From: a virus
DNA: 56,749 nt
Virus record (IMG/VR): IMGVR_UViG_3300025108_000059
Location: 1 to 56,749 of that record
Strand: one strand, 5' to 3'
Below the pieces are notes generated by a model, which was not told the origin of the DNA, did no database searches, and saw only the letters and a program-made list of their open reading frames with translations. Positions within the stretch are counted from its first letter, which is position 1. Each line of letters opens with the position of its first letter. Positions 29,312-31,132 of the stretch are shown one piece after another. Position numbers and translations under genes: made by a program.

Positions 29312-30046
29312 TTATTTTACTAAAGTTAGCTTAACTCTGTTAAAAAGAGTCTCTTTTGCGTTACTATACTTGCTTAATTCCTGTTTATTAACAGTTCCAC
29401 GTATAGTTATTGTTTTGCCTTCGATAATATCAGTTAGATCTGGCTGTTCTCTCCACCAAAACTTAACAATATCTCGGTTATCAGATACGCATGTAATCAT
29501 GTAAACGTCACTTGACTGTATAAACTTAACATCTATTACATCTACTTCAATGTCATAGCGAGCGCCTTTTTTACCAACATATTGGCTTATATGCTTTAGT
29601 TGAGACATTGTGTCGTTAAGTGCTTCACGCTTCTGGTCAATCTTTAAAGAATTTGGAACACTTGCAAGAATACTTACATGGAAATTATTAACATCATCAG
29701 AGGTTGCTCTTACTAGTCCACTTTCAAAGTTAGTAAGGCCACCGCCAAGTTTTTTCATCATTAATTTACCATTAATGCGTTCAATTTCTGCGGTTGCTTG
29801 ATCTACGTATTTTTGATTAGGAATGTATTTTCCTTTAAAGTTTTTTACGGTTTGAATGATAACTGTTTTGTTATCTTTAATATCAGTGTAGATTTGATTT
29901 CCATCTTCGTCTACTGTATTAGTAGGTTCTTTATAACCGTATCCGCTTTTAACAAAGCCTTGTGCGTCAAATACTTCAAATGAGATGGCTAATATTTCAG
30001 CCGGTGTATAATTGCTTATATCATTTTTTACTTGTGTTGCTGACAT
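29312..30046 (-). CDS. hypothetical protein with OB-fold-like C-terminus
   Basis: 244 residues. The C-terminal 80 residues (YDIEVDVIDVKFIQSSDVYMI, DIVKFWWREQPDL, GKTITIRGTVNKQEL) have the strand pattern of an OB-fold. The N-terminal half is alpha/beta with many charged residues. Nucleic-acid binding is possible. It is a monocistronic unit with an operator-type promoter, AGGAGA site and terminator. Confidence 0.6.
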   Translation of the reverse strand: MSATQVKNDISNYTPAEILAISFEVFDAQGFVKSGYGYKEPTNTVDEDGNQIYTDIKDNKTVIIQTVKNFKGKYIPNQKYVDQATAEIERINGKLMMKKLGGGLTNFESGLVRATSDDVNNFHVSILASVPNSLKIDQKREALNDTMSQLKHISQYVGKKGARYDIEVDVIDVKFIQSSDVYMITCVSDNRDIVKFWWREQPDLTDIIEGKTITIRGTVNKQELSKYSNAKETLFNRVKLTLVK

Positions 30047-30080
30047 AGTATTTCTCCTACTAATTAAACTTTATAATAAT

Positions 30081-30109
30081 AGTATACGGTAAGAAGTCTT
30101 ACTTGTCAA
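30081..30109 (-). promoter_or_regulatory. sigma70-type promoter with palindromic operator
   Basis: Minus strand TTGACA (30104-30109), 17-nt spacer, TATACT (30081-30086). Perfect palindrome GTAAGA-CT-TCTTAC (30089-30102) in the spacer. Confidence 0.88.
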
Positions 30110-30122
30110 CCTTTTTTTAGTC

Positions 30123-30154
30123 AAGAAAAAACCCAGTCCTAAAACTGGGTTTTT
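30123..30154 (-). terminator. rho-independent terminator of the structured RNA
   Basis: Minus strand 9-bp stem AAACCCAGT/ACTGGGTTT with 6-nt loop and TTTTTTCTT tail, 3 nt after the closing helix of the RNA. Confidence 0.9.
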
Positions 30155-30373
30155 AAATAAGCAAAATAGGGAGGACTGGGGTGCACCTCCAAGTAGCACA
30201 TCTAGATACCTTTTCTAACTACACTACCACCTACTCCTGCGTATCCGCAATGTGACTCCCTCCGTTTTCCGGGTAAAGCCTGGGTATAACCCCTGAGCAG
30301 TCAAGTTCGACGCCTAGGTAACGCCTCTTCCTTGCACTATAAACATTGAGCCGCTAAACTCTTTGTTGCTTAT
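30123..30373 (-). ncRNA. orphan structured non-coding RNA (about 220 nt plus terminator)
   Basis: No credible reading frame covers this gap. The minus-strand RNA is closed by ATAAGCAA (30373-30366) pairing with TTGCTTAT (30164-30157). Inside lie a 13-position stem with one mismatch (30227-30215 with 30205-30193), a TGCG-GATA-CGCA hairpin (30249-30238), CCG-GAAAA-CGG (30272-30262), GGG-TTATA-CCC (30292-30282), a TGACT/AGTCA helix enclosing the last two, and a GGAGG/CCTCC arm. Its promoter puts the 5' end at the first base of the closing helix. It does not match tmRNA, RNase P, 6S or a riboswitch that I know. Confidence 0.8.
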
Positions 30374-30379
30374 GTATTT

Positions 30380-30408
30380 AATATAATACATCTTGACCGA
30401 AAAGTCAA
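30380..30408 (-). promoter_or_regulatory. sigma70-type promoter of the structured RNA
   Basis: Minus strand TTGACT (30403-30408), 17-nt spacer, TATATT (30380-30385). The inverted repeat TTGAC-N6-GTCAA (30393-30408) covers the -35 box, a different operator from the AAGA-NN-TCTT type. Confidence 0.82.
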
Positions 30409-30427
30409 CCTTTTTTTTAAACTTTTT

Positions 30428-31132
30428 TTAAATTTTATATATGGTTTCTTTGTTACCTTTTGCAACTAAATTCCATGTTGTTTCTGTTGCTGTTCCTGTT
30501 ATCTGCAAACAAGGTCTTTTAGTCCAACTACCATTCCATGTAACATGCGGCAGTGTGCTCCAATCCCATGCAAATATTGTTCCTGCTTTCCATTGTGTAT
30601 ACACAATGTTTCCAAATTGAAATATTTGTCCTGGTTCGTGATCTTCTAATGTAATTAAAAAACGTATCTTATCAGGATGCTGATACTTAAACTCTGGGTT
30701 GTCAATAACTCTATCCTTGCGTGGGTTTCCGGGTAAGTTATCAATGTGCCACATTAACTGATCATTTGGATACTGATCGTTAAATTTACATGTTAGTTTC
30801 TCATCTGTGTTGAAACAAAACATGTCTGTAATCTTTGTAAACTGTGGAAACTCTCCTGGAAACTTATCGTAATTAACTTTACGAAACATAGTTGTGTTTG
30901 GCTTTCCATATGGGTTGTCTGCATCTTCTACGACATGATCTTTGCTTTTAACATTAGCCGCATGCTCGTATCTTTGTTCGTTGTAGATTTGAGTTCGCAC
31001 ACCCTTGCTACGTGCATGTTCTATTTCTGCTTTCCAGTCGCCTGCTAATACGCCTGCGATCTTAACGTATTCGCCTTCTTTATCTTCTTTAAATTTATCA
31101 AAGTGCCATGGTGTTTTAAAAGGTGAGGGCAT
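30428..31132 (-). CDS. 2OG-Fe(II) oxygenase-like protein
   Basis: 234 residues. The double-stranded beta-helix signature can be traced: metal ligands HxD in LMWHIDNLPG, strands RFLITLEDHEPGQIFQFG, GTIFAWDWSTLPHVTWNG with the distal His, and RPCLQITGT, where Arg would bind 2-oxoglutarate. Phage members hydroxylate proteins or nucleotides, but the substrate here is unknown. A late promoter (31174-31182) and AGGAGT site precede it. Confidence 0.7.
   Translation of the reverse strand: MPSPFKTPWHFDKFKEDKEGEYVKIAGVLAGDWKAEIEHARSKGVRTQIYNEQRYEHAANVKSKDHVVEDADNPYGKPNTTMFRKVNYDKFPGEFPQFTKITDMFCFNTDEKLTCKFNDQYPNDQLMWHIDNLPGNPRKDRVIDNPEFKYQHPDKIRFLITLEDHEPGQIFQFGNIVYTQWKAGTIFAWDWSTLPHVTWNGSWTKRPCLQITGTATETTWNLVAKGNKETIYKI

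Follow-up and report, generated by a model that had tools for sequence, protein, structure and literature searches.

The closest described relative of the RNA studied here is manA (RF01745), which Rfam types as cis-regulatory and which was published as a riboswitch candidate (Weinberg et al. 2010, PMC2864571). Later publications have carried it forward as a metabolic regulator that acts in cis in cyanophages (PMC9964418, PMC12197685, PMC10665884). In pelagimyophages and cyanomyophages, a survey that used a riboswitch scanner detected none (PMC7029224). Neither PMC2864571 nor PMC9964418 names a ligand for manA, and we found no account of manA expression during infection in the open-access literature.

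An RNA unit between two phage genes

The window, i.e., the whole stretch of 56,749 nucleotides analyzed here (IMG/VR record IMGVR_UViG_3300025108_000059), encodes a myovirus of the T4 superfamily, an uncultured and probably large marine phage. Its UvsX is closest to those of jumbo phages Phosso, Atu_ph07, and Vibrio 2.275.O, and its sheath protein to those of PA5oct-type phages (40%). A perfect tandem repeat at 56467-56749 (78-nt unit, 3.6 copies) reaches the window end. Between two minus-strand genes lies a gap of 381 nt (30047-30427), in agreement with the gene-free gap of about 380 nt in a preliminary description that had named no strand; all elements claimed there are present, and they lie on the minus strand:

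30428-31132, minus strand: upstream gene, 234 aa, without family match
30408-30380, minus strand: sigma70-type promoter of the RNA, with -35 box TTGACT (30408-30403), 17-nt spacer, and -10 box TATATT (30385-30380)
30374-30126, minus strand: body to terminator of the RNA unit, which consists of promoter, P1-closed body, and intrinsic terminator
30374-30155, minus strand: structured RNA body, matched by the branch model over its full length, predicted 5' end at about 30373
30154-30126, minus strand: intrinsic terminator, a 12-pair hairpin followed by a T run
30109-30081, minus strand: second promoter (TTGACA-17-TATACT), distinct from that of the RNA, for the gene at 29312-30046
30046-29312, minus strand: downstream gene, 244 aa, phrog_3628 (function unknown)

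The RNA is placed on the minus strand because of its promoter, its terminator, and its homologues; a plus-strand fold of the interval, which mixes promoter sequence with the RNA's complement, was rejected. The first base of the 8-bp closing helix (P1) indeed coincides with the predicted start site, 7 nt past the -10 box. A near-twin of the window (L031) has the same 3' flank and also carries a terminator, as do 37 other independent 3' flanks, and the separate promoter of the next gene is present in L031, L085, and L098 as well. The minus-strand fold of the window RNA (-81.0 kcal/mol, z -2.38, with 4 of 200 shuffles as good) is moderate evidence when taken alone, and promoter-like sites are not enriched in the 7 kb around the RNA (22 observed versus 26 expected), so that its promoter by itself is not significant. 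The case therefore rests on the homologues.

Homologues and covariation

Contrary to its first description as an orphan, the RNA has numerous homologues: its 17-nt core is shared by at least 119 IMG/VR stretches, with one full-length copy per viral record. Searching with blastn returned one annotated relative, Pelagibacter phage Mosig EXVC030M (72.6% identity over half of the query), in which the RNA is unannotated. An alignment of 41 non-redundant copies gave a consensus fold of 60 pairs, in which 96.7% of the alignment cells pair (79.8% when shuffled) and 38 of the 60 pairs have changed on both sides. The covariation score of 0.501 compares with 0.181 in shuffles and 0.05-0.12 (at most 0.116) with slid partners, and model R2, built without the window copy and its near-twins, scores the window copy at 171.7 bits (E 5e-54). 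The fold is made up as follows:

30373-30366, minus strand: P1 5' strand AUAAGCAA, paired with UUGCUUAU; covarying A-U/U-A and C-G/U-A among homologues
30164-30157, minus strand: P1 3' strand UUGCUUAU, paired with AUAAGCAA
30365-30341, minus strand: P2 hairpin, identical in L051 though most other domains differ
30340-30337 and 30169-30166, minus strand: P3, with 5' strand AUAG and CUAU, its first pair seen as AU, UA, GC, CG, and GU
30334-30302, minus strand: P4 domain with invariant CAAGGAAGAGGC ... AACUUG
30300-30231, minus strand: P5 domain, with closing helix 30300-30295/30236-30231 and hairpins P5a, P5b, and P5c
30227-30193, minus strand: P6 stem-loop with GGUAUC loop, comprising two helices of the consensus fold (10 and 11)
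30190-30170, minus strand: P7 hairpin GGAGG/CCUCC with UA/GC and AU/GC covariation

Double changes occur in all of P1, P2, P3, P5, P5a, P5b, P5c, P6, and P7. The covariation check that the preliminary description had proposed for the closing helix and for the 30193-30227 stem, which is P6, thus comes out positive for both, and the stem is real. In P4, the outer helix is invariant, so there is no covariation to score, and the inner helix covaries. An anti-Shine-Dalgarno role for the CCUCC of P7 was rejected, with relatives carrying CCUAC or CCCAC and compensating partners. We also do not claim a kissing loop or pseudoknot seen by eye between the ACC of the P4 loop and the GGU of P5a or P6, because these bases either never vary or vary without compensation.

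Across homologues, junctions are invariant and stems are swapped. One stem is identical while another is at most 50% alike in 40 of 820 copy pairs. The window shares P2 with L051 and an identical P5b with L062 and L121, and the other variable stems of these pairs are about 37-53% alike, which suggests that stem cassettes are exchanged between phages around a fixed core.

Most carriers of the branch are pelagimyophages or uncultured marine phages related to the GAP32/Phosso-type jumbo phages, and many relatives encode, upstream of the RNA, a capsid protein closest to the Phosso and GAP32 types. No convincing copy turned up in the jumbo relatives that are in culture (GAP32, Atu_ph07, Phosso, PA5oct, and Vibrio 2.275.O). 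Cellular bacterial copies were rejected: a scan of 257 Gb for the 17-nt core gave 10 matches, which is no more than chance, and only two of them (L178 and L179, from one marine Neomarinimicrobiota MAG) carry the RNA. In both, the RNA stands roughly 200 nt away from a gp23 capsid gene, so they are probably contigs of jumbo phages that were binned with a bacterial MAG. A position just downstream of the major capsid gene gp23 is seen both in T4-like cyanophages (L158, L162, L164, and L165) and in the marine jumbo-type L116 group. Other RNAs found nearby are freshwater-2 RNAs (RF02980), about 0.1 to 1 kb from the RNA in L049, L027, L067, L005, and L116. L116 and L121 also have glutamine riboswitches (RF01739) upstream of the RNA.

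Promoter, terminator, and neighboring genes across the branch

Of 46 independent upstream flanks, 39 have a sigma70 promoter that matches at least 10 of 12 positions and stops 3-7 nt short of P1 (1.4% when shuffled), and an intrinsic terminator directly follows the RNA in 38 of 59 independent downstream flanks (0.5% when shuffled, 2% at random places). The terminator hairpins are simple and differ in sequence from locus to locus, and we saw no conserved overlap between them and the RNA body. Within 220 nt downstream, 33 of the 59 flanks have a T4-type late promoter motif (7% background), and 50 of 59 have either a terminator or such a motif; in many relatives, late promoters stand between the RNA and the next gene. 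Clustering assigned the flanking genes to more than 20 unrelated families. In L016/L062/L089/L095 and in L094/L100, from two clades, the next substantial open reading frame even points the other way (L054 is also called so), so that the RNA has no cis target there. In a Mosig-type minority (L002, L008, L036, L061, and L106), the RNA runs straight into an open reading frame with no terminator in between.

The terminators, the unrelated neighbors, and the opposite orientation of some next genes indicate that the RNA does not depend on having a gene downstream. The initial description of a discrete structured RNA equipped with promoter and terminator is strongly supported by covariation, the leave-out model, and the recurring placement of both elements in homologues; sequence comparison establishes the fold, where the promoter lies, the presence of the terminator, and independence from any one downstream gene. 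In 17 of 46 independent copies (L003-L121), the motif TTTTGG, mostly followed by (T/A)AA, lies about 45-53 nt upstream of P1 and before the -35 box, compared with 1.75% of random 45-nt stretches, and it may be an extra promoter element.

Relationship to manA and other known RNAs

A search of the region and of the whole window against Rfam gave no manA match for the window copy at E<=10. The Mosig homologue, in contrast, matches RF01745 end to end with few broken pairs and scores 64.0 bits, above the gathering cut-off of 55.2, so that the statement that the RNA resembles no known riboswitch does not hold: its closest homologues match a published candidate riboswitch. This cut-off is passed by only 6 of 20 records of the window's branch, Mosig included, and most others reach 44-55 bits (E<1e-10). 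In the reverse direction, branch model R1 finds the canonical manA of P-RSM4 (E 6.4e-6) and R2 finds those of P-SSM3 (2e-10), P-HM2 (9e-7), and P-RSM4 (7e-6), matches that are significant yet weak and partly shifted in register. The helix topology is common to both branches (P2, then P3 around P4, a three-hairpin P5, P6, and P7); both also start at a sigma70 promoter and occur in marine myoviruses. They differ in the extra closing helix P1 of the window's branch, usually with a terminator directly after it, in the conserved core (UAGUGCAAGGAAGAGGC in the window's branch versus GAGUGACUGAAUAAACUU in manA), and in the set of host phages. Since the Mosig copy passes the cut-off, the reverse matches are significant, and the topology is the same, we conclude from these comparisons that the window's branch is homologous to manA; with no match of its own, the window copy is not a manA member by Rfam's own rule and belongs to a divergent, previously unrecognized sister branch.

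Canonical manA has a promoter of its own as well: one scoring 11-12 of 12 lies just upstream in 13 of 13 named cyanophages (for P-HM1, the scored register has spacer 19 and offset 0, with TTGACA and TATAAT visible in the sequence), and at least 11 of 12 positions match in 64 of 81 independent contigs, compared with 0.07% when shuffled. In the named cyanophages, the RNA often lies directly downstream of gp23 or pstS. A terminator was detected in only 18 of 97 copies, and the next gene is on the same strand in 95 of 97, at a median distance of 64 nt; these next genes fall into 33 families, of which a gp32-like protein is the largest. Because terminators are few and same-strand genes are close by, canonical manA may be a promoter-driven leader that acts in cis; for the window's branch, a free RNA is the better reading. 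Small "hypothetical protein" genes annotated over the manA RNA in S-SSM5 (L162), P-HM1 (L164), P-HM2 (L166), and P-SSM4 (L169) are probably not genes.

As for other classes, phi29 pRNA, 6S RNA, and GOLLD/ROOL are structured RNAs that stand alone, some of them made by phages from their own promoters. The likeness to the window RNA is one of kind only, since the architecture differs, and the Rfam search of the window found none of these families above cut-off. An end-to-end closing helix and a multi-branched body also recall tmRNA and RNase P, but neither these two nor 6S RNA match the window RNA with their family models, just as the preliminary description had held. A separate tmRNA gene, matching both the permuted and the alpha- or beta-type models, is present at another place in Mosig (L002:1543-1846) and in two relatives (L100:8797-9117 and L114:9533-9833). 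STnc430 and other low Rfam matches in the region lie below cut-off and were rejected because a generic terminator hairpin drives their score.

Proposed role and alternatives

We favor the view, to which we assign a probability of roughly 0.6, that the RNA is a discrete early phage RNA that acts in trans through its P1-P7 body together with a protein or RNA-machine partner. A host-type sigma70 polymerase would start the transcript at the 5' strand of P1 and end it at the terminator just beyond the 3' strand, yielding a noncoding RNA of about 220-250 nt that would fold into a closed, multi-branched body with the helix order of manA and P1 as outer helix. The steps after transcription are inferred, as are early expression and action in trans. 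The sigma70-type promoter would fit early expression, as would the T4-type late promoters found downstream in many relatives, and action in trans is suggested by the exclusion of a cis target. Invariant unpaired bases (the surroundings of CAAGGAAGAG, AGUCACA, GGUAUC, and the P7 loop) may form a binding surface for a putative partner, be it a protein or RNA machine common to the hosts of these phages or a phage protein, and the covarying peripheral stems would serve as exchangeable scaffolding.

The strongest competitor, though an unlikely one, is a cis-acting riboswitch or attenuator as proposed for manA, in which a ligand-sensing leader would use the terminator as expression platform for the next gene. 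The filing of RF01745, the same-strand genes downstream of most canonical copies, and the few copies that run into an open reading frame without terminator speak for it, but the RNA of the window's branch is not found as a cis-regulatory site in the 5' UTR of metabolic genes. In the window, a second promoter past the terminator serves the next gene, late promoters intervene in many relatives, next genes are functionally incoherent and in two clades face the other way, and the terminators vary by locus without conserved overlap with the body. With its fixed promoter, its terminator, its unrelated neighbors, and some next genes on the opposite strand, this branch does not fit a cis-regulatory filing. 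An antisense RNA that base-pairs with host or phage mRNAs would equally be a stand-alone unit with a Rho-independent terminator, like trans-acting sRNAs, yet most of the length is conserved structure, the invariant bases sit in junctions and small loops instead of a single-stranded seed, and relatives of the RNA are found in phages whose hosts are as distant as cyanobacteria and SAR11, all of which makes this improbable. Slightly less probable again is a decoy or antitoxin-like function of the RNA against a host defense nuclease or toxin, which would suit the early-type promoter, the variable stems around a constant core, and the many alleles apparently exchanged between phages, but no conserved toxin or defense gene adjoins the RNA. 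A chance fold or hairpin pair without function, as the single-sequence z-score and the regional frequency of promoter-like sites might suggest, is already contradicted by covariation, the leave-out match, and the fixed promoter and terminator placement in homologues, and has a negligible probability.

Beyond the window's branch, we tentatively suggest, at somewhat less than even odds, that RF01745 and its relatives are not riboswitches and that they form one widespread class of promoter-driven RNAs of cyanophages, pelagimyophages, and marine jumbo phages, which would act in trans on a shared host feature, with stems shuffled as cassettes and a fixed junction core. What is new here is the sister branch, which looks free-standing, beside a manA long listed among candidate gene-control switches. 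The promoters and terminators point to a plain and testable alternative to a cis regulator, namely a discrete phage RNA, and cultured systems exist for both branches, with Mosig on Pelagibacter HTCC1062 and P-SSM2, P-SSM4, and P-HM2 on Prochlorococcus.
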